Below are positions 578 through 9,141 of a stretch of DNA of 64,000 nucleotides, piece by piece. The translations under genes were made by a program, and so were the position numbers. Source of the stretch: Cyanobium sp. N.Huapi 1H5 (GTDB lineage: Bacteria; Cyanobacteriota; Cyanobacteriia; PCC-6307; Cyanobiaceae); NCBI RefSeq assembly GCF_024345535.1, contig NZ_JAGQBH010000001.1:310001-374000 (forward strand). The letters run 5' to 3'. Below the pieces are notes generated by a model, which was not told the DNA's origin, made no database searches, and worked only from the letters and a program-made list of their open reading frames with translations. The stretch's first letter is position 1. Every line of letters begins with the position of its first letter.

Positions 578-1567
578 TCAAAAACGACTGACCAAACGTC
601 TGACGTACTGATTCGAAGCGCCATAACTGACGAAAGCCACATCAAGATCAGCGTGTCGGTGGAGGTTCAATGCCCGCTCAATGCCCTTCAGAATCCAGTC
701 GGTTTCATTGCCGAAAGCCCCGCCACCGAGCAACGTGAGAAACACTCGGTTGCTTCCATGCTGAACTGAGTTCAGGATGGCGGTACAGATCGTTGCCTCA
801 TAGCAGGCTTCCAGGATGAGCCGTGCGAAGGGGGCCCAGAGGTTCGACGCATGGCGGGAATAGGCCACGGGCAAGGCGGAACCGTAGGCCTGAGAAACGA
901 GGTGTGCGCAATCCATCAACGTCACCTGGGTACGCCACTGAATGCCAATGCGCAGCAACCGTCGCCAGCCGTCGCGTTGTTCCTCGTCCGCAGACTTCAG
1001 GCGCTCTGAGATCTCCACCAGGCCAGCGCGCGAGGCCAAAGGGTAGCCATTCCTCATCTCCCAGAGGCGGCCCTCTGTGTTTCCCAGAGCGATGCCGAGA
1101 TCAGCCAGGCAGTCGATCTGGTGGCGCGCTGATTGGCCAGTTTGCCCATTGACATCCGCGAAGTAGTTGCGATAGATCGTTCCTGCACCAGCTGCCATGG
1201 CACACGCCGGCCCCTGGGTATGGTCATGTTCATAGATCCCCACTCCGTGCTCTGGCGTCACATCTGGAGACACCATCTCAAGCAGGTTGAACTGCGAGGC
1301 CACCTGAAAGAGCGCCTTCGCGTTCGACTCGTCGGCGTGCAGATCTTGGACATTGGCGACAACTTCTCGCACCCTCAGAGTGCCAGCCGGATAGGCGCTG
1401 GCCTGAACACGCTCTCGCAAGTCAGCCAACGACGGCGTTTCCAACCGGCCACAGACGAGAACCCTCCCATTCACATGGGACTGCAGGCTCTCTCCTTCAA
1501 CCGTGATCTTCCCCCGAACTTGCTCTGGGGAAAGCTCTGAGAAGCCGGTCAGTTCCTCAAACCACAT
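578..1567 (-). CDS. Macrodomain/PARG-like protein (candidate ADP-ribose-handling protein)
   Basis: A 329-residue protein without an assured family name. Two glycine-rich segments resemble ligand loops of macrodomain/poly(ADP-ribose) glycohydrolase folds: QGPACAMAAGAG at residues 118-129, followed by YRNYF, and LGGGAFGN at 280-287, followed by a helix. The second matches the G-C-G-x-FGN loop of bacterial PARG-like proteins. No catalytic Glu-Glu pair is seen after the first loop, so hydrolase activity is not established. The ATG lies two bases from the heptamer ATTCAAC, a possible cassette boundary, and the gene is the most distal recognisable cassette gene. The fold assignment is inference from motifs. 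Confidence 0.55.
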   Translation of the reverse strand: MWFEELTGFSELSPEQVRGKITVEGESLQSHVNGRVLVCGRLETPSLADLRERVQASAYPAGTLRVREVVANVQDLHADESNAKALFQVASQFNLLEMVSPDVTPEHGVGIYEHDHTQGPACAMAAGAGTIYRNYFADVNGQTGQSARHQIDCLADLGIALGNTEGRLWEMRNGYPLASRAGLVEISERLKSADEEQRDGWRRLLRIGIQWRTQVTLMDCAHLVSQAYGSALPVAYSRHASNLWAPFARLILEACYEATICTAILNSVQHGSNRVFLTLLGGGAFGNETDWILKGIERALNLHRHADLDVAFVSYGASNQYVRRLVSRF

Positions 1568-1568
1568 G

Positions 1569-1659
1569 ATTCAACGACTTCCGGGGGGACTGGACACAAG
1601 ACGGGCAGCATGCTCAAGCTCGGTATCGAAGTGATGCACGGGGAGCTCAACGGTTAGGC
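1569..1659 (-). repeat. attC-like site (one good half)
   Basis: On the minus strand this reads GCCTAAC at one end (consensus RYYYAAC) and GTTGAAT at the other (consensus GTTRRRY), 91 bp overall, within the known attC size range. The TAA stop of the GFA gene lies inside the first heptamer, and the next gene begins two bases beyond the second. The inner arms are only weakly complementary, so the site may be decayed or chimeric. Confidence 0.4.
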
Positions 1660-2058
1660 CTGTGGAGGAAAGCGCTGAAACTGGGGAAGTTCGTGGGCGC
1701 TTTCCATCCAGGCAATGCGTTCCGCCACCTGGATCTGAATACGGGCTGGCACGGCCTCCGGTGAATCGGAGGTAGCACTCTGGATATCGACGATCCCAGG
1801 AAGCCCTTCGGGGTTGTAGTAGAAGAGTCCAGTGCCGCAGTCGCCACAGAAATGCCGTTGTGCCTGCTGCGACGACGCGTAGATTTTGGGAACACCCCGA
1901 GTCACTCGCAGGGCGGTCTCGGCATACATCGTCCAACCCACCACCGGTGCGCCGGCATGGCGGCGACAATCAGAGCAGTGGCAAAGGGCGTGGGTGAGCG
2001 GATCACCTTCGACTTCGTAGCGAATGGCGCCGCAGTGACAGCCACCGGCGAGTTTCAT
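1654..2058 (-). CDS. GFA family zinc protein (glutathione-dependent formaldehyde-activating-like)
   Basis: A 134-residue member of the GFA/CENP-V family, small zinc-binding proteins first known from S-hydroxymethylglutathione synthase. The expected zinc ligands are present: GGCHCG near residues 5-10, CHCSDCR near 26-32, and a later FCGDCG. Length is normal. Most members have no proven substrate, so thiol-dependent aldehyde handling is only a family-level guess. Its TAA stop lies within a GCCTAAC heptamer at the 3' end, the arrangement expected of an integron cassette gene. GFA genes are common in cassette arrays. Confidence 0.85.
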   Translation of the reverse strand: MKLAGGCHCGAIRYEVEGDPLTHALCHCSDCRRHAGAPVVGWTMYAETALRVTRGVPKIYASSQQAQRHFCGDCGTGLFYYNPEGLPGIVDIQSATSDSPEAVPARIQIQVAERIAWMESAHELPQFQRFPPQA

Positions 2059-2119
2059 GTTCCAGGTCCTCCAGGGATGGGACGCAGGGTGAGGGAAAGT
2101 GGGGGATCAATCCATTATG

Positions 2120-2202
2120 TCGTAACCGCGTCGATCCTGAATCGCCCCCTCTAGGGAATAGGGGCAGATACAAACCGAGAAACGCCCATTCAGATGTTGA
2201 AT
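2120..2202 (-). repeat. attC-like inverted repeat between cyclic-nucleotide-binding and GFA genes
   Basis: On the minus strand ATTCAAC (2196-2202) overlaps the 3' end of the upstream gene. It is followed by an arm ATCTGAAT which pairs with ATTCAGGAT, and the site ends near GGTTACGAC. Length is about 83 bp. The far heptamer deviates from GTTRRRY. An inner GC-rich hairpin around CCCTAGAGGG also allows a transcription terminator reading. Confidence 0.4.
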
Positions 2203-2627
2203 CCGTAGGGAGCGGTGGTGACACGCAGGCGGCGAGCTAATTCCTTGACGATCCCCTGCACGATCTCGGGGTGATCGGCCATCAGACTGTGCAAGGTCGA
2301 CTGCTCGATCTGATAGAGCGTACTTGGATCGATCGCGCTCACCGAGGCCGAGCGGGGTGCCGGGTCGAGAGCGGCAAGTTCGCCCACCATCTCACCAGCT
2401 GAGAGTTCAACGATGGTCTGGCCACCGATGTGGACCCGCACCAGGCCCGTAGCGATCACGTACATCGAGGTACCGTGGTCTCCCTTGGCGAACAGCTGCT
2501 GGTTGGGTGCAAGCTGCACTTCTTCCACGGCATCAGCCACAGCAGCCAGAACGTCGTCGGGGGTGGAGGCGAAGATACTGGCCCGCCTGAGCCGCAGAAT
2601 CTTGTCGTGCGGGGCCGTGCTGGTCAT
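2190..2627 (-). CDS. Cyclic nucleotide-binding domain protein
   Basis: A 145-residue stand-alone cNMP-binding (CRP-type beta-barrel) domain with no DNA-binding helix-turn-helix. The phosphate-binding cassette is recognisable: GELAALDPAPRSASV, with the Glu and Arg that hold the cyclic nucleotide. Earlier glycines (FAKGDHGTSMYVIATG) form the usual turn structure. Such solo domains often act as sensors paired with separate effectors; none is evident next to it. Start is an ATG at 2625-2627. It sits between choloylglycine-hydrolase-like and GFA genes on the same strand, consistent with a cassette. Confidence 0.8.
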   Translation of the reverse strand: MTSTAPHDKILRLRRASIFASTPDDVLAAVADAVEEVQLAPNQQLFAKGDHGTSMYVIATGLVRVHIGGQTIVELSAGEMVGELAALDPAPRSASVSAIDPSTLYQIEQSTLHSLMADHPEIVQGIVKELARRLRVTTAPYGFNI

Positions 2628-2812
2628 GGCACTTGGAGAAGAAGCGTCTGAGGCCGGGTCAGACCGAGGACAATGACATCAAATTTAGCGTGCTCGCCAG
2701 CTGTAGCAAGCTCGGCAGGTAGATCTACAGCGTATTCTCCCGTTCAATCGTCATCACGAATGACCGGACCAGAGGAATATGCTTCACTAAGCTTTAGGCG
2801 TGAAAGACTCTT
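2628..2812. other. Intergenic stretch without clear attC
   Basis: 185 bases between two minus-strand genes. A partly palindromic CACTAAGCTTTAGGCGTG is centred on an AAGCTT just beyond the hydrolase stop. Its minus-strand GCCTAAA resembles an attC heptamer with the last base changed, but no partner is found. No gene is seen. Confidence 0.3.
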
Positions 2813-3913
2813 CTACCAAGGCCAGCGAATCGTTGATAGGAACGCACCTTGACAGAGCCTGACCATTTTGCCCCAAGCCATTTTAAGAGGCTCAGCCGGC
2901 TTGAGCGCGGCCGAAAGCTCGCCCGCGAGAGGCTGACCACGCTCTATCCTGACGACTTTCGGCGCAGCACCTTCAGTGAGATCAACCTTCTTGATATCGA
3001 TCCACGAAACCGCGGGGAAGATTGCAGACTCAAAGTAGTAAACCTTTGCCCTTTGATCCGCCACGGTCCGCCACAGTGTCATCGCGATATTCGGATGACT
3101 CGCATCGGCCAAGCCGAGTGGAACACTGATCATGCGTGCCTGCGAAAACACCGATGCGAGCGCCAGCTCGGGATCTTTGTACTTCGGTGAAAGCTTTAGA
3201 TAGTAGGACGTGCGAACGAAACGATCGGCGGCGCTGATGGTACCAGGAAGGAATCGATCGCCCCCAACCTTTTCCCAGTAGACATTCAGCGCGAGCTGCT
3301 GGTCAAACGTTGGGGAGTTGGTCATCACCCTGTACTGCGCGCCATGGTGAATCACGAGTTTGCCATTGATATATTCAAGAATCGCAGAGTCGCCGGTGGC
3401 ATCAGAAAGCGAAAGATGCAGGCCCGCCGCATGTCCATTCGGCAGTAGAGGCGCAATGATGGCAAAGGGGGGATTGGCCATCGCGGCCACAGCCTCCCGC
3501 ACGGTTGCGAAGTTGTCGAGGAAGTACTGTGCCCAGGCGCCAGCGCTCAGCGTGGGCTTCCCTGACTTGGTCGCATCACCCCATTCGGCTTCCTTGAGGT
3601 AAAGCAGGTTCGCAACGAGTCCCTTTTCATTCATGCCATCGGCCGTTCCGGCATCATAGAAAGAGACAGCAATGGAGCCATACTTGGCGCTCCATTTGAT
3701 CGGATTGGCACCGACCGTTCCATCGCGCTTCATCCCTCTGGGAAAGGCCCATAGCGCCGTCTTGGCGGACGTATCCATCCAATCCATCGAACGCCCCGTG
3801 ATGAAGGACTTACTGCCCGTCTCATAGAGAAGACGCGTACAAGCTCGCGCTTCATGGGCATGCTGAAATCCAAATATCGAGATGACCAGGGAGCTGATCA
3901 GGGCCTTCATCAT
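2813..3913 (-). CDS. Secreted choloylglycine hydrolase-family (Ntn) amidase
   Basis: A 366-residue linear-amide C-N hydrolase of the penicillin V acylase / bile salt hydrolase family. Residues 1-24 form a signal peptide ending EARA, directly before Cys25, the N-terminal nucleophile exposed by processing. The following RSMDW supplies the conserved Arg and Asp, and TNSP supplies the Asn. Gram-negative relatives are periplasmic and several hydrolyse N-acyl homoserine lactones. Bile acids are an unlikely natural substrate for a free-living cyanobacterium, so signal-molecule or amide-antibiotic cleavage is plausible but unproven. It lies in the cassette block, and its signal peptide and length look intact. 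Confidence 0.85.
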   Translation of the reverse strand: MMKALISSLVISIFGFQHAHEARACTRLLYETGSKSFITGRSMDWMDTSAKTALWAFPRGMKRDGTVGANPIKWSAKYGSIAVSFYDAGTADGMNEKGLVANLLYLKEAEWGDATKSGKPTLSAGAWAQYFLDNFATVREAVAAMANPPFAIIAPLLPNGHAAGLHLSLSDATGDSAILEYINGKLVIHHGAQYRVMTNSPTFDQQLALNVYWEKVGGDRFLPGTISAADRFVRTSYYLKLSPKYKDPELALASVFSQARMISVPLGLADASHPNIAMTLWRTVADQRAKVYYFESAIFPAVSWIDIKKVDLTEGAAPKVVRIERGQPLAGELSAALKPAEPLKMAWGKMVRLCQGAFLSTIRWPW

Positions 3914-4076
3914 CGGAATGCTGATGAGACTCTCACTGTGGACCTCTTGATTCTGGTGATGGATTAGTTTTTCCTAGCTACATCGCTTCGTCATGTCAGC
4001 GCCTCTGTGATATTCCTTGAGGCTTCGCTGGAGACGGCTGCTGGATCTTGATGCGAGGTGCCTCGCTCATGATGAA
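3914..4076. other. Intergenic stretch, no gene seen
   Basis: 163 bases between the hydrolase gene and the cupin gene, both on the minus strand. It contains a short minus-strand frame of 24 codons after an ATG, with no recognisable features. No consensus attC heptamer pair was found. Confidence 0.3.
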
Positions 4077-4427
4077 CTACACCGGCTCGAAGCCCAATGC
4101 TGCGGGAGAGACGACGGAAACGAAAACAAGCGGTTCTTGACCGGTGTTAAGCACACCGTGGACGTCTCGGCGATGGGCTACCAGCACATCTCCCTGGGCG
4201 ATGGCAATCGACTCGCCGTTAGCACTAAGGCGGTACTCGCCGCAACCTGAAAGGATGGTCCATGTATCTTGGCCGTCAGGATGCACATGAGCCGAGATCT
4301 GCTGGCCGGGCTTGACAAACCAAGCAACGACCGCTGCGTCAGCCGACTCGGTGATGACTGAGCGAATGGGCTCACCATCTGTGGGTTGGAGAAAGTCTGT
4401 GACCTTGAACAAACGCTGGGAGCTCAT
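4077..4427 (-). CDS. Small cupin domain protein
   Basis: A single-domain cupin of 116 residues from the ATG at 4425-4427; the frame is open to another ATG at 4469, which would add 14 residues that do not look like cupin. Cupin motif 1 is present as HVHPDGQDTWTIL with its metal-binding histidines, and motif 2 as DVLVAHRRDVHGVLN. One-domain cupins of this size include metal-dependent isomerases, dioxygenases and sensors; the substrate cannot be inferred. It follows the GNAT gene on the same strand in the cassette block. Confidence 0.75.
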   Translation of the reverse strand: MSSQRLFKVTDFLQPTDGEPIRSVITESADAAVVAWFVKPGQQISAHVHPDGQDTWTILSGCGEYRLSANGESIAIAQGDVLVAHRRDVHGVLNTGQEPLVFVSVVSPAALGFEPV

Positions 4428-4468
4428 TATGGACTCGATGGAACAGGGTTTGGCGGGATTTAGCAACA

Positions 4469-4597
4469 ATGGCGGCCCAGCGGGACTTGGAGGCCGAACG
4501 CCTGGCAGATGAACTCTATGCGGAACAACGGTTGAACCGTTCGATCGGCCTGTTGCGCATCAGCGAACGGTATCAAGAGTATCCAGATCCTTCGTGA
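4469..4597 (+). CDS. Possible small plus-strand protein (42 aa)
   Basis: A 42-codon frame from ATG 4469-4471 to TGA 4595-4597, opposite in direction to its neighbours. The predicted peptide is charged and helical, with segments such as AERLADELYAEQ and IGLLRISERYQEY, a composition more like a real helical protein or the tail of one than a chance frame. It overlaps the 3' end of the GNAT gene by 38 bases. It could be a remnant of a larger inserted gene. No family is recognised. Confidence 0.3.
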   Translation: MAAQRDLEAERLADELYAEQRLNRSIGLLRISERYQEYPDPS

Positions 4598-5060
4598 AGA
4601 TCACGCGGTCTTGACCCTCCCCGTCATAGCCCACGGCGATGGGCACCCCGTCGACCTTGTCGTCAGAGTCAAGAAGAGAGAAGCCAAGGCGACGATGGAA
4701 GGCAATCGAGTCGCGATTGACCGGAGCGGTCACGCATTGGGCCGTGCGGCAGCCATGCGAGGCAGCCGCAGCAAAGAAATGCCCATAGAGGAGGCGCCCC
4801 AACCCCTCTCCACGTCGTGCGGGATGCACGCCGAGGAAGTGGATATAGGCCTGGTCGGGAAAGGTCTGCGAAACAAAACCGATGAGGAACCCAACGATCT
4901 GACCATCATCGACGGCGGTGAAGCTGGTAGAGCGGAAGTGGACGAAGAAGAGCTTGGGAAGCATGGCGGCCATAGGCCGACCACCCCACCATGCATCAAC
5001 AACCGAGATGATCGGTTGATAGTCGTCTTGCTCAAGATGTCTGATGACGACCTCGGTCAT
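4560..5060 (-). CDS. GNAT family N-acetyltransferase
   Basis: A 166-residue GCN5-related acetyltransferase. Motif A, which binds the acetyl-CoA pyrophosphate, is clear as HPARRGEGLGRLLY, preceded by the strand AYIHFLGV. The later strand-helix with NRDSIAFHRRLGFSLL is the typical FY-x-x-GF acceptor-side motif. Length is normal for a single GNAT domain, and the start has an AGGAGG-like sequence just upstream. Acceptor substrate unknown; GNATs are among the commonest integron cassette products. Confidence 0.85.
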   Translation of the reverse strand: MTEVVIRHLEQDDYQPIISVVDAWWGGRPMAAMLPKLFFVHFRSTSFTAVDDGQIVGFLIGFVSQTFPDQAYIHFLGVHPARRGEGLGRLLYGHFFAAAASHGCRTAQCVTAPVNRDSIAFHRRLGFSLLDSDDKVDGVPIAVGYDGEGQDRVIFTKDLDTLDTVR

Positions 5061-5234
5061 AGCCTCCTACTCCGCAAACAGCCCGCCTGACGTTTGAGCT
5101 AAAATGCCGTAATAGCTCAGCTTATGCGAGAGGCTCGGCAACACTTGGCCGGAGAGGTGGGAGCTGGGCATGGGTTAGCCGATGCAGGTGCCAGCGGCAG
5201 ACACTGTTGTTCACGAGTCGCCTGCGCAAGGGAG

Positions 5235-5546
5235 CTAGCGCGGCCTGCGAAGATGTCTGAGGGCCAACCTGACGAAAACTACGGCAGCCACCAGGATGGA
5301 TGCGGCGACTGCCGAACAGAGAAACAGCATCACGATAAACCAGAACGGACTTTCCGACAAGCTGAGAGCAGAACTCGCGGGCCCGAAGTTCCTGGAGGGC
5401 GTGCTCAACTTGCCCGAGGATGCAGAGAGGAAGAGCCCATAAAGCATTGCGCCCGAAGCCGAGGCGATCGGAACTGCCAGCAGCAGCAAGAACCAAGCGG
5501 CCCATGTCCTTACCCGTTGGGTGGTTCTCGAATTTTGAGTGCCCAT
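5235..5546 (-). CDS. Hypothetical two-TM membrane protein
   Basis: A 103-residue protein with two hydrophobic segments (about residues 14-40 and 68-92) separated by a Ser-rich stretch and closing in a basic tail RLALRHLRRPR, predicting an inner-membrane protein with both ends cytoplasmic. No family is recognised. It lies between the second cupin and the GNAT gene on the same strand. The roughly 170 bases after it contain GGCTAAC-like heptamers but no convincing attC. Confidence 0.5.
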   Translation of the reverse strand: MGTQNSRTTQRVRTWAAWFLLLLAVPIASASGAMLYGLFLSASSGKLSTPSRNFGPASSALSLSESPFWFIVMLFLCSAVAASILVAAVVFVRLALRHLRRPR

Positions 5547-5638
5547 GTGAAAAAAGACGCCGTTTCTGTACTGCTTTAAGCCAAGATCGCCTTAACACTA
5601 GAATTCAAGGGAGAAATCAAAGCAGAATTAGAGGCGCG

Positions 5639-6121
5639 TCAGTTGAATGTTGATGCCATAAGGACTTGATTTTTCGCCTGAATCGACCATGGGCAAAGAC
5701 TCGCGCATGTGAGACATCCTTCTTCTCGCGGGCGGTGCTGAGTGCCCAATCCAGCTGTAATGAAAACTGCTGTTGCCTCGTGCTCCACGTCAGCCGTGTG
5801 CCAGGTGCCAGGTGCATTGATTGCGTACTGGCCAGGACCAAGAGTTACGGCCGAGCAGATACCATCAGGATCCTCTAAGTGGAGGACCATTGATCCGGAA
5901 GTGCATAGAACGACTTCGCTTCCATGCGGGTGCATTTCCCACATGTCCCACGACACGTTGAATGTGTGCATGCTTACGAGACGCCCCTCAGGGCCATCCA
6001 CGGCATGCCGGTTGACGGACTCTTCGTACCAATCCATTGCACCCGTGAATAATGGTTCAACCTCGGCAGTTGCGCCAAGACCCAGATGCACTGGATGAGC
6101 AATGATGTCATGTGCACTCAT
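5639..6121 (-). CDS. Cupin domain protein with run-on C-terminus
   Basis: A 160-residue cupin. The core (about residues 45-130) has the motif HPHGSEVVLCTSGSM and the second motif GPGQYAINAPGTWHTADV, with metal-binding His and Glu in place. Related proteins end near the segment GLGTQHRPR; here the frame runs on for about 28 residues of unrelated sequence, as if the original stop had been lost. The TGA finally used follows directly on the minus-strand heptamer ATTCAAC, an attC-type core. Function is unknown beyond the metal-binding fold. Start ATG has a GGAAATTCC stretch upstream, so the ribosome site is weak. Confidence 0.75.
   Translation of the reverse strand: MSAHDIIAHPVHLGLGATAEVEPLFTGAMDWYEESVNRHAVDGPEGRLVSMHTFNVSWDMWEMHPHGSEVVLCTSGSMVLHLEDPDGICSAVTLGPGQYAINAPGTWHTADVEHEATAVFITAGLGTQHRPREEGCLTCASLCPWSIQAKNQVLMASTFN
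5642..5648 (-). repeat. attC-type core heptamer at cupin 3' end
   Basis: GTTGAAT on the plus strand (ATTCAAC on the minus strand) matches GTTRRRY/RYYYAAC and touches the cupin stop codon. About 50 bases away toward the next gene lies GTGTTAAGGC, an imperfect partner heptamer. The arms are not well paired, so only the core is listed. Confidence 0.3.
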
Positions 6122-6456
6122 GGAAATTCCCTTTAGTCGCCATGGAGTGGAACTTTATCAGAGGAAATCACAGACAGCCGGATGTGATCCGTATAACGCC
6201 TAGCTCAGCTGCCGCAGAGATCTCCAAGACTAAGCGGGCCATTGTGGAGGCGGCCAAGTGCTGCAAGATGTTCTACCTACTGCATGGAGCCGGGGGCTCT
6301 GTATAACGCGGTTGACTTGCTCGCCGGAGTAGACCGTGACTTTAGGGATTTACAGACTTGCCCAAAGCATGTTCCTTGGGTCCAACTTGTGGTCAACAGC
6401 GATTGCGGTCAGCGCCCTGAAGAGGTGTAAGCCTAGAAGCGACCACGCTTCCTTGA
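6122..6456. other. Gene-free stretch carrying attC-like elements
   Basis: 335 bases with no credible gene on either strand. It contains two direct copies of GTATAACGC (6191-6199 and 6301-6309), an attC-like structure starting at the first copy, and a small GC-rich hairpin (GAGCC/GGCTC) just before the second. It probably represents cassette junctions without a coding sequence. Confidence 0.4.
6191..6276 (-). repeat. attC-like site, imperfect
   Basis: GTATAAC (6191-6197) at one end and GTTCTAC (6270-6276) at the other are near-complements. The inner arms AGCTCAGCTGCCGC and GGCGGCCAAGTGCT are partly complementary with a few unpaired bases, as is usual in attC. The length of 86 bp equals that of the clear attC nearby. 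Both heptamers depart from the strict RYYYAAC/GTTRRRY consensus. Confidence 0.4.
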
Positions 6457-6677
6457 CTAAAGCCACTGTCTAAGAAGGTAGATGCTTGATGCAGTGAATG
6501 AGAGGAAGGCGATCAACATGATCGAGCCCGACACGTTCGCATGAAATTGAATTCTAGCTGACTCCTCTTGACTTGCATCGGGGAAGGGGAACCCCCCCCC
6601 CCCCAGGCCGCACCAGATAAGAAGCCGATTGGGCTCCCCAGCATCAGAACGGGTGTAATTTTGCTGTAAGTGCTCAT
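6457..6677 (-). pseudogene. Small membrane-protein cassette gene, frame broken in a 13-G tract
   Basis: Starting at ATG 6675-6677, only 14 bases inside the cassette boundary, the frame encodes a hydrophobic start (TPVLMLGSPIGFLSGAAWG) and then enters a run of 13 G. As written it goes out of frame and stops soon after. With one extra G the frame continues through a charged linker (PDASQEESARIQFHANV) and a second hydrophobic segment (SGSIMLIAFLSFTASSIYLL) to TAG at 6457-6459, giving a 73-residue two-TM protein. The break may be a real phase-variable tract or a homopolymer sequencing error. No family recognised. Confidence 0.6.
6592..6604. repeat. Homopolymer of 13 C (13 G in the coding strand)
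   Basis: An uninterrupted run inside the small membrane-protein gene. Tracts of this length slip readily, so the copy number decides whether the downstream transmembrane part is translated. Fourteen bases restore the frame. Confidence 0.85.
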
Positions 6678-6684
6678 TGGTGAG

Positions 6685-6771
6685 GCCTAACGCTCAAGAT
6701 CAGCGGCGGGCAGAAGCTCAAGGCGATAGCCAGGTTCGTCGGGCCCCGCCCGTTGAATCTTGATGTTAGAC
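6685..6771 (-). repeat. attC recombination site
   Basis: The best attC in the window. On the minus strand it runs from GTCTAAC (6765-6771) to GTTAGGC (6685-6691), matching RYYYAAC and GTTRRRY exactly. The inner arms ATCAAGATTCAACGGGCGGG and CCCGCCGCTGATCTTGAGC pair along nearly their whole length with a few extrahelical bases, as needed for the folded single-strand substrate. Length is 87 bp. The TAA stop of the PD-(D/E)XK-like gene lies inside GTCTAAC, and the next gene starts 14 bases beyond GTTAGGC. Confidence 0.85.
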
Positions 6772-7266
6772 CCCCTCTGCCAGCTGACAGAGGCGCTGAT
6801 CTGTGAAGATCCAACTGGCGGGAATCTCATCAATTGTTCCTGCTGCCTTGGCTCTAGTAGTCCATGCATGGTATTCATGCAAAGTAGTGTCGCCACGACC
6901 AGCTGCAGCCAGTCGTAGCCAAGCACCGATTTCACTCGGAGTGGCAAGGTACATCCTCGGCAACTGGTCAATGGGAACATTGTAAAACTGCACTAGACAG
7001 AAGATGACTCGCGTGGAATGCCTCGCCAGCCATAAATCGATAGCGCCTTGGTAATCTGCCTTTTCTAGATCGGACTGGGTAAGGCCCCATGCCCCGTCCT
7101 TGCTCCCCTTTACAGATATCTTTAGGACTTGATCTTGGTTTACGGCAACAAGGTCATACTCTGGTTGATTTGCTCCGTATTGCACAGATACATCCCATCC
7201 ACATCTTGCGAACTGCCCAGCCGCAAAGGCCTCGGCTGCAGTAGCGACATGCCATGAGTTTCTCAT
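6766..7266 (-). CDS. PD-(D/E)XK nuclease-like protein
   Basis: A 166-residue protein with the outline of a restriction-endonuclease-like core: Glu12 in an N-terminal helix (AAEAFAAGQFARCGW), Asp38 in a strand after a turn (PEYDLVAV), then Lys53 in LKISVKGS, the last matching the xVK motif strand. Similar small proteins include Holliday-junction-resolvase-like and restriction-associated nucleases; the usual acidic residue before the Lys appears as Ser51, so catalysis is uncertain. It shares a cassette with the uracil-DNA-glycosylase-like gene 71 bases upstream, and its TAA stop overlaps the attC site. A nucleic-acid or defence role is inference. Confidence 0.6.
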   Translation of the reverse strand: MRNSWHVATAAEAFAAGQFARCGWDVSVQYGANQPEYDLVAVNQDQVLKISVKGSKDGAWGLTQSDLEKADYQGAIDLWLARHSTRVIFCLVQFYNVPIDQLPRMYLATPSEIGAWLRLAAAGRGDTTLHEYHAWTTRAKAAGTIDEIPASWIFTDQRLCQLAEGV

Positions 7267-7337
7267 TTCAGAATGCTGGCTTTAAATTGGTTCTATCATG
7301 GAATGAGAGGCATGTCGCTGATAGACAGCGCGACCCC

Positions 7338-8126
7338 TCAAGCAAATGGTTTCGGCACACTCGACCGTCGCTTCATTGCGGCTAAAAGGGCGGATCGCAT
7401 ACGCTTGGCCTTTTGCGCATAAGGTGCATGCTTTGGCTTCTGCTTAAGGTAGTCGGCTTCCTCACTCTCATCGAGGCAGAAGATGGCACGTTGCTGAAAA
7501 TTCTGGGCGAAGTGGGGAAAGTTAAGTACTTCCACTCCCATTCCCTTGATCCGATTGAAGACTGGAATACCATTGACCCTAAGACTCGTAACTGCCGCCC
7601 ACCCTGGGTCACCAAAAATGATGATCCACTCAAGAGAGGGGAAGCGGGCAATATCTGCCAAGAATCGATTGGCGACACAGTGTATTGCTTCAGGACTTGC
7701 GGCAATCTCGGGTGCCTTGTATTTATAACTGCCGTTCACCTTAAGACAGCACTTAACCAAGGACGTTGTGAAGATATCTGGGCTCTCATTTAGATCAGCG
7801 GCCAAGCTTAGTCCAATACTCTCCGCAAATCCATGAGCGGCGAGCAGTTCCTTAATTTGGCTCTGTGCCCCTTCGAAAGCAGCTCGTTTCGCTGCGTCCG
7901 GGACCGACAGAAAACGCAGGTAACGTGCAAACGCTTCCGATTGTCCTCCCGGTGTAATCCCCACCAAGGCCACACGAGGCGCTAAAGGTGCATTTCCTAA
8001 AGGAGAAAAAATGAGTTCGCGGTTGCCGCGAACAGCAATACGGAGACCGTCCATTGTGAATCGAGAGGCATCAATCGTACGTTCTCCACCCTGGCAGCAA
8101 TAATCGCTGAGTTTGATAAGTGCCAT
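7338..8126 (-). CDS. Uracil-DNA glycosylase superfamily-like protein
   Basis: 262 residues from the ATG at 8124-8126; upstream in-frame ATGs exist but would place the start inside or beyond the attI core. Motifs resemble UDG families 4/5: GITPG at 56-60 for the catalytic-loop GxxPG, TSLVKC at 121-126 for the TNxVKC strand, then a Cys-led helix and a strand EWIIIFGDPG. His205 in FPHFAQN could correspond to the DNA-intercalation loop histidine. Iron-sulphur ligands are not complete. It is the cassette gene nearest attI, the position usually most recently acquired and best expressed. Base-excision repair or defence against modified phage DNA are both possible. Confidence 0.6.
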   Translation of the reverse strand: MALIKLSDYCCQGGERTIDASRFTMDGLRIAVRGNRELIFSPLGNAPLAPRVALVGITPGGQSEAFARYLRFLSVPDAAKRAAFEGAQSQIKELLAAHGFAESIGLSLAADLNESPDIFTTSLVKCCLKVNGSYKYKAPEIAASPEAIHCVANRFLADIARFPSLEWIIIFGDPGWAAVTSLRVNGIPVFNRIKGMGVEVLNFPHFAQNFQQRAIFCLDESEEADYLKQKPKHAPYAQKAKRMRSALLAAMKRRSSVPKPFA

Positions 8127-8141
8127 GTTGTCACTAGTGAG

Positions 8142-8317
8142 GTCTAACAGTATTTCGGCGGGTCCGACATTCATCCCGCTCGGGGTGCTTCGGCGGAATA
8201 AGAAGCCGTCGAGACCATGATCATGCCTTGAAGCTCGCTCCAGCGTAAGGCTTTTCTCTGGCGTTGCTCTTGGGTGACGGAGACATGGGCGGGTCCGGGA
8301 ACCAGATGTTCGATTGG
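8142..8317. promoter_or_regulatory. attI-like region with core GTTAGAC
   Basis: The minus-strand heptamer GTTAGAC (8142-8148) matches the recombination core GTTRRRY and begins the first cassette; the following bases CCTCACTAGTG closely resemble those after the core of the clear attC (CCTCACCAATG). Between it and the integrase stop are about 170 bases with a direct repeat TTCGGCGG (8154-8161 and 8189-8196), which could be integrase-binding repeats, and no long inverted repeat, as expected of attI rather than attC. Confidence 0.6.
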
Positions 8318-9141
8318 TTACAGAAGGTCCACCGGACTCATCACCCCGCAAGGGCCGCGATTCAGCACATGGGTATAGATCATCGTTGTCTTCACGTCGC
8401 TGTGCCCCAGCAATTCCTGGATGGTGCGGATGTCCTGGCCGCGCTCCAGCAGGTGAGTCGCAAACGAGTGGCGGAACGTATGGCAGCTTGCCGGCTTGCT
8501 GATTCCGGCCCGCAGGAGTGCCCGCTTCACCGCCTTCTGGATCACGGATGGGTCAATGTGATGCCGGCCTTGTGTTTTCGTCTTTTCGTCATGCCAACGG
8601 TGCGATTGTGGGAAGACCCACTGCAAGCCCCATTCCGAGGCGGCGTTCGGGTACTCCCTTAGGTCGGCTCGGTGCATCTGCCGCACCACCAGCAGATGAT
8701 TCTGCAAGGGCTCCATCAGGCTGGCGGGGAACACGGTGACCCGGTCCTTGTCCCCTTTGCCGCTGCGGACGGTCACTTGCCTGACCTCAATCTCCACATC
8801 CTGCACCCGCAGCCTCAGCGCTTCCATCAGCCGCAGTCCGCTGCCGTAGAGCATCTGCGCCACAAGCTGTTCGGTTCCCTGGAGCCTTTCCAGCACCTCC
8901 CTCGTCTCCGCCACCGTGAACACCACCGGCAACCGCTTGGGCTGCCGGGCGCGCACCACCCCTTCCAGGTTGCCCACATCTCCCCAGAGCACCTGCCTGT
9001 AGAGAAAGAGCAGGGCGGACAACGCCTGGTTCTGCCTGGAGGCACTCACTTGTCCCACCGTGGCCAAGGGATGCCGCATCCCGTGAAAGCACAGAAAGCG
9101 CTTCACCCCCTGGGCATCAGTTCTTCCCGATAACGCTCCAT
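8318..9141 (-). pseudogene. intI: Integron integrase (IntI-type tyrosine recombinase), decayed
   Basis: The C-terminal catalytic part is intact and unmistakable: SGLRLMEALRLRVQDVE with the first Arg, CHTFRHSFATHL with His and Arg, LGHSDVKTTMIYTH with His and the nucleophile Tyr, and the IntI-type ending SPVDLL. The IntI-specific insertion is shortened: QMHRADL runs directly into YPNAASEWG, missing about 15-20 residues. The N-terminus is also broken. An ATG at 9139-9141 reads MERYREELMPRG then stops, while the main frame picks up at KRFLCFHGMRHP and lacks the usual N-terminal helices. A continuous frame could start at ATG 9077-9079 (253 residues). Probably inactive. Unusually, it points the same way as the cassettes. 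Confidence 0.85.

Follow-up and report, generated by a model that had tools for sequence, protein, structure and literature searches.

Brig-type antiphage DNA glycosylases were first reported in 2024, and few families of them are known. Brig1, which has 42 described homologues, is a proven antiphage glycosylase that restricts phages with modified DNA; it removes glucosylated hydroxymethylcytosine and protects against T-even phages, and the family-4 uracil-DNA glycosylase (UDG) 4ZBY is one of its close structural homologues, with the pocket Asn changed to E147 in Brig1 (PMC11078745). In family-4 UDGs, the catalytic pair H155/N89 consists of the motif-2 His and the motif-3 Asn (PMC5387724). A UDG-containing system is also found among the computational predictions of DefensePredictor (PMC13092281). 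Here we describe a two-gene integron cassette in a window of 64 kb (the whole stretch of DNA analysed, taken from a 3.14-Mb genome, probably of a freshwater picocyanobacterium), for which a possible role as a defence unit that pairs base removal with cleavage had been suggested. Our preferred reading, held tentatively, is that this foreign cassette encodes a base-recognising glycosylase-like protein and a small PD-(D/E)XK nuclease, and that both are most likely cargo of phage or mobile-DNA conflict.

The cassette lies on the minus strand, between an attI core and an attC site. Its crossover end is the attI core GTTAGAC (8148–8142, minus strand), recognised from the sequence and from a break in homology to sister platforms. 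At the other end stands an attC of 87 nt (GTCTAAC...GTTAGGC, 6771–6685, minus strand), recognised by its fold, by a site scan and by its copy in Synechococcus sp. Tobar12-5m-g. The ends of the attC bottom strand are paired in the predicted fold (−19.0 kcal/mol), and in a scan by the R'/R'' rule this was the sole attC-like site with paired ends in the whole window; it has 20 linking pairs, as against 0.15 sites with at least 14 pairs per shuffled 9-kb sequence. Another candidate attC, at 5522–5403, was rejected since its ends do not pair. Between the two genes lies a gap of 71 bp (7337–7267, minus strand) without attC sites, and a similar gap is found in contig L007 of Tobar12-5m-g; a pattern search for an RYYYAAC...GTTRRRY pair between the UDG-like and nuclease genes found none, which bears out the original prediction that no recombination site separates them. 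The same prediction had placed the cassette between the attI core and a first attC. The placement holds, but not the word "first", as no second cassette has a canonical attC and no array is visible, and the cassette end, previously set at 6766, is corrected to the outer end of the attC at 6685. Homology (92%) to the sister platforms of two same-genus genomes (G006 and G003; loci L027 and L028), which share the integrase and the flank with the window, stops at the attI core, CTGTTA(GA), and this stop confirms the cassette boundary; the genes after attI differ in G006, G003 and the window. An attI core and a foldable attC thus flank the open reading frames, and the platform of the relatives holds other content, as in an integron cassette. 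The GC content is 51.6% in the cassette vs. 68.8% in the window, the cassette is absent from 59 relatives, and no promoter turned up in a scan of the cassette region. The two-gene cassette is foreign in origin and mobile.

The integron integrase gene (8318–9112; TIGR02249, E = 7e-101) is co-directional with the cassette on the minus strand, and its remnants reach ~9170, partly in another frame. The N-terminus is degenerate, with the first 52 model positions missing and ~15 residues of the G003 copy lost, and the platform may therefore be inactive. In that case the cassette might be immobile, except through trans action of another, longer integrase match in the genome (C1:542530–543396). On the cassette side of the attC, the minus-strand genes at 578–6121 encode a GNAT acetyltransferase, two cupins, a choloylglycine-hydrolase-family protein, a cyclic-nucleotide-binding protein and a GFA-family protein; this stretch has no recognisable attC sites, and its genes are possibly old cassettes or an island. 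A run of ~11 C at 6594–6604 lies just past the attC, within the gene-poor stretch at ~6120–6685 that separates the attC from a cupin gene. A Pfam scan of seven neighbouring genes found no defence genes, and the neighbours look metabolic; PADLOC models, run on the two cassette proteins, matched neither of them.

The first gene (8126–7338, minus strand) encodes a divergent 262-aa protein of the UDG superfamily. Its match to the Pfam UDG profile is weak yet beyond chance (E = 1.3e-4; 22.5 bits vs. a cut-off of 24.3). An AlphaFold2 (AF2) model built from five alignment rows has a modest pLDDT of 64, and its best Foldseek match is a UDG. In VIA-align, all 50 of the 50 listed chains are UDG-superfamily enzymes, headed by 4zbx, the family-4 UDG of Sulfolobus tokodaii (Z 8.4 over 155 residues, 3.8 Å). 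A Z of 8 is about the level that the tool terms common, but the list consists wholly of UDGs, and a UDG fold is therefore favoured and, at the level of the model, supported. An hhalign comparison of the cassette UDG family with one family-4 sequence fell short of significance (E = 0.15), even though it matched up motifs 1 and 3, and the structural evidence is for this reason the main support for the assignment; a search of the UDG-family profile against PDB sequences returned chance antibody matches only. The UDG resemblance that had been noticed in GITPG and TSLVKC is thus upheld, with a UDG as every top match of the structure-based check and a weak match in Pfam.

The residues of the putative active site agree in part with those of family 4. 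The protein carries GITPG (56–60), TSLVKC (121–126) and PHFAQN with H205, as well as N131 and C150. Motif 1, GITPG, is invariant in the two full-length members, without the GE[AG]PG of family 4, and holds no catalytic Asp, Asn or Glu; the water-activating residue of motif 1 is missing from UDG families 4–6 too (PMC5387724). His205 of motif 2 is invariant in all alignment rows covering that position, and N131, which is Asp in two relatives, lies five residues past C126, the same distance as in family-4 UDGs. Cys 10, 11, 126, 127 and 150 are conserved in the covering rows and lie near the family-4 cluster positions, with a different spacing and in a part where the model is poor. Ser122 stands where the uracil-reading Asn precedes VKC, the host family-4 UDG having NVVKC, and uracil is therefore an unlikely target. 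Judged from these residues, the active site points to a functional glycosylase with another target base, possibly a modified one, or to a non-catalytic reader, and argues against plain uracil repair. The earlier suggestion of uracil in phage DNA as the target is accordingly disfavoured by the residue changes.

The second gene (7266–6766, minus strand) encodes a 166-aa protein, which sequence profiles support as a PD-(D/E)XK-like nuclease. The Pfam profile PDDEXK_5 (PF11645) is matched at E = 7e-5, with 23.3 bits, which is under the cut-off of 26.1 and beyond chance; a phage homologue matches the same profile at 23.2 bits, and a profile of four homologues finds 3fov, a UPF0102 structure, at E = 0.0012. 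E12, D38 and K53 are invariant in the four homologues, with S51 replacing the D/E of (D/E)XK. The restriction-type nuclease core proposed originally therefore agrees with the sequence profiles, but gains no support from structure prediction, where the AF2 model reached a pLDDT of 39.

The pair is present in a second genome, that of Synechococcus sp. Tobar12-5m-g, which belongs to the same family but to another genus. DNA identity between the window and contig L007 of that genome is 89% over the 3' end of the UDG gene, the gap, the nuclease gene and the attC, and then ends; the attC is kept except for its outer end, and different genes lie downstream. Given this identity, the shared attC and the similar spacing, the pair in Tobar12-5m-g is the same cassette by descent, attC included. 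The nuclease is intact there (95% identity), and in place of the UDG gene's 5' part there is an IS-like repeat, which fills positions 1–126 of the contig (L007:1–126) and also opens three other contigs of Tobar12-5m-g, four in all. A search of the remaining assembly did not turn up residues 1–173 of the UDG-like protein. The missing part is likely due to a mobile element that inserted into the gene or, less probably, to a gap in the assembly. Compared with the Tobar12-5m-g copy, the nuclease has a dN/dS of 0.09 (29 synonymous and 11 non-synonymous changes), and the UDG 3' part has a dN/dS of 0.46 (10 synonymous and 17 non-synonymous changes). By these ratios, the nuclease is under strong purifying selection and the UDG 3' part is relaxed.

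Across 400 genomes of Cyanobiaceae and 388 of the class, strong scores for both genes were confined to the window genome and Tobar12-5m-g. No independent pair was found in these two sets, in a wider scan of genome contigs, in viral contigs, or in phage and plasmid records, and neither tblastn of both proteins nor blastn of the cassette against plasmids and phages gave a match. Weak nuclease matches in other Cyanobiaceae (E ~1e-5 to 5e-4) aligned only to portions of profile positions 1–100, and were not counted as orthologues. The proposed check by co-occurrence has thus turned up the pair in a second genome, but as one cassette lineage without independent recurrence: the pairing is real and mobile, and belongs to one lineage rather than to an independently recurring system. 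Outside the cassette, each gene occurs alone. In the tail operon of phage contig L004, a nuclease homologue with 67% identity is encoded in the interval that separates the tail-fibre and tail-sheath genes; a D12-class DNA methyltransferase gene precedes it by 56 bp and an OLD/AriA-like ATPase gene adjoins it, a setting that fits phage conflict. The methyltransferase–nuclease pair in this contig could be a restriction-modification-like unit. Together with the ATPase gene it forms a cargo block (L004:4045–7355) within the tail operon, at what is presumably an accessory-cargo position similar to the Z/fun site of P2. The nuclease copy of phage contig L005, amid tail genes, is broken. A 441-aa fusion represents the UDG subfamily in contig L003, which also has a serine-recombinase-like gene; in L008, a metagenome-assembled genome, the copy is broken and lies close to an integrase-like gene, both of these neighbours being named by eye from the sequence.

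These separate occurrences suit a different explanation, namely that the two genes are independent cargo which came to share one cassette, e.g., by loss of an attC between two former cassettes, with the nuclease selected for a role of its own in phage or mobile-DNA conflict and the UDG-like gene a decaying passenger. We consider this possible and nearly as likely as a true system. The nuclease in L004 and L005 and the UDG-like gene in L003 and L008 stand apart from each other, purifying selection is strong on the nuclease and not on the UDG 3' part, and in Tobar12-5m-g the truncated UDG gene is followed by an intact nuclease gene. On the other hand, both genera keep the genes side by side at a similar distance, the window carries a complete and unbroken UDG gene, and the dN/dS contrast rests on few changes (17 non-synonymous and 10 synonymous in the UDG part) and may reflect decay after the insertion.

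Under the preferred reading of the cassette as conflict cargo, the UDG-like protein would flip out and excise a base other than uracil, such as a modified or hypermodified phage base. His205 would stabilise the leaving base and N131, or the Asp of the relatives, would position the water; the nuclease would then cut at or near the abasic site, or would cut foreign DNA alone. Defence by base excision plus cleavage is a reasonable hypothesis. The original idea of a paired defence unit is supported as to the UDG fold and the nuclease profile, and not as to recurrence and the uracil target; moreover, the UDG gene is cut in Tobar12-5m-g and broken in L008, and the plasmid relatives of the UDG-like protein have other partners, all of which speaks against the preferred reading, as do the lack of a PADLOC match, the restriction of the pair to one lineage, the relaxed dN/dS of the UDG 3' part, the missing catalytic residue of motif 1 and the metabolic look of the neighbouring genes. 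The same active site could also belong to a non-catalytic sensor of bases or DNA, which would recruit or control the nuclease as in modification-dependent restriction. GITPG in motif 1 and Ser122 in place of the motif-3 Asn, which make canonical uracil excision unlikely, and the retention of the fold and of His205 would suit such a sensor; yet His205 and N131 (or Asp) are kept at the very positions that are catalytic in family 4 (PMC5387724), and we regard the sensor as rather improbable.

The cassette subfamily is related (hhalign E = 1.7e-11; hmmsearch E from 4e-7 to 8e-4) to a wider family, whose members include 16 plasmid proteins and, from a cyanobacterium, the distant relative L040, with the motifs GITPG, TTSALRYPVF and PHPSGAN. 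A DUF4258-like gene, a regulator-like gene or both lie near the UDG-like gene in 9 of 17 loci (L003 and 8 of the 16 plasmid loci), the former encoding 90 aa with HARxRxQQRGI and the latter marked by LLAGxxxxAVRN; neither gene is found in the window. The module of regulator, DUF4258-like and UDG-like genes is seen on plasmids and a viral contig at L003:3126–5756, L048:5266–7774, L051:6572–8571, L043:5480–7783 and L054:2699–4677. With such partners in the plasmid loci, the recurring partner of the UDG-like family is not a nuclease. On a Pseudomonas nitroreducens plasmid (L055:2766–4684), the UDG-like gene lies 33 bp after an Exo_endo_phos gene, whose product starts with a signal-peptide-like stretch, which makes a link to abasic-site cutting doubtful. 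Even if the cassette pair is no system, the cassette protein is tied to an unnamed plasmid family of UDG-like proteins whose genes repeatedly have a DUF4258-like gene and a regulator close by. A more specific form of the preferred reading is that a new UDG branch (GITPG...SxVKC...PHFAQN) with altered specificity forms, with the nuclease, an integron-mobile two-component base-excision restriction unit, the plasmid branch using the DUF4258-like protein and the regulator instead. We hold this to be unlikely as a whole; if true, base excision and strand cutting would be joined in one mobile unit moved by picocyanobacterial integrons.

Two-gene cassettes are often toxin–antitoxin modules, and this lends some weight to an addiction cassette in which the nuclease would be the toxin and the UDG-like protein its partner. 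The plasmid UDG relatives lie behind a regulator and a DUF4258-like gene, and DUF4258, although without an assigned function, falls within the RelE/ParE superfamily (PMC11980606). As neither cassette protein resembles an antitoxin and the nuclease persists in Tobar12-5m-g without an intact UDG gene, we think an addiction cassette improbable. An ordinary repair pair for uracil or deaminated bases, for which membership of the UDG superfamily would speak, is very improbable, given that the host genome already encodes a canonical family-4 UDG, that the uracil-reading Asn is replaced and that the gene is a rare accessory.

The cassette, in our preferred reading a carrier of conflict cargo, can be compared with several described systems. 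PabI-type glycosylases share with the proposed mechanism the concept of base removal as restriction, but they have an unrelated HALFPIPE fold and are sequence-specific, methylation-guarded single enzymes (PMC10273834). Brig3–BapA is an operon of a glycosylase and a second enzyme that acts on modified phage DNA; its glycosylase, Brig3, is similar to alkyladenine glycosylase, and the partner, BapA, is not a nuclease but a glucose hydrolase (PMC13160076). The nuclease resembles PDDEXK_5 (PF11645) and UPF0102/YraN in its N-terminal half, through E12, D38 and xxK53 and through weak but repeatable profile matches; it differs in scoring under the Pfam cut-off, in the S for D/E and in ~100 unmatched C-terminal residues. 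With family-4 UDGs, the 262-aa protein shares the predicted fold (4zbx, Z 8.4), VKC, the motif-2 His, an Asn at the position of N89 and Cys near the cluster positions, and it departs from them in GITPG for GE[AG]PG, S for N before VKC, HFAQN for HPS, and CC for a spaced N-terminal cysteine pair. The likeness to Brig1 extends to a single domain of nearly equal length (261 aa in Brig1 vs. 262 aa), a close family-4 UDG structure, a replaced pocket Asn and an accessory gene. The replacement is Ser122 in the cassette protein and Glu147 in Brig1, the two positions being equated through the family-4 Asn and compared by description. The cassette also differs from Brig1 in having a nuclease partner and no defence genes among the seven neighbours scanned, although some Brig1 homologues are encoded outside defence islands.
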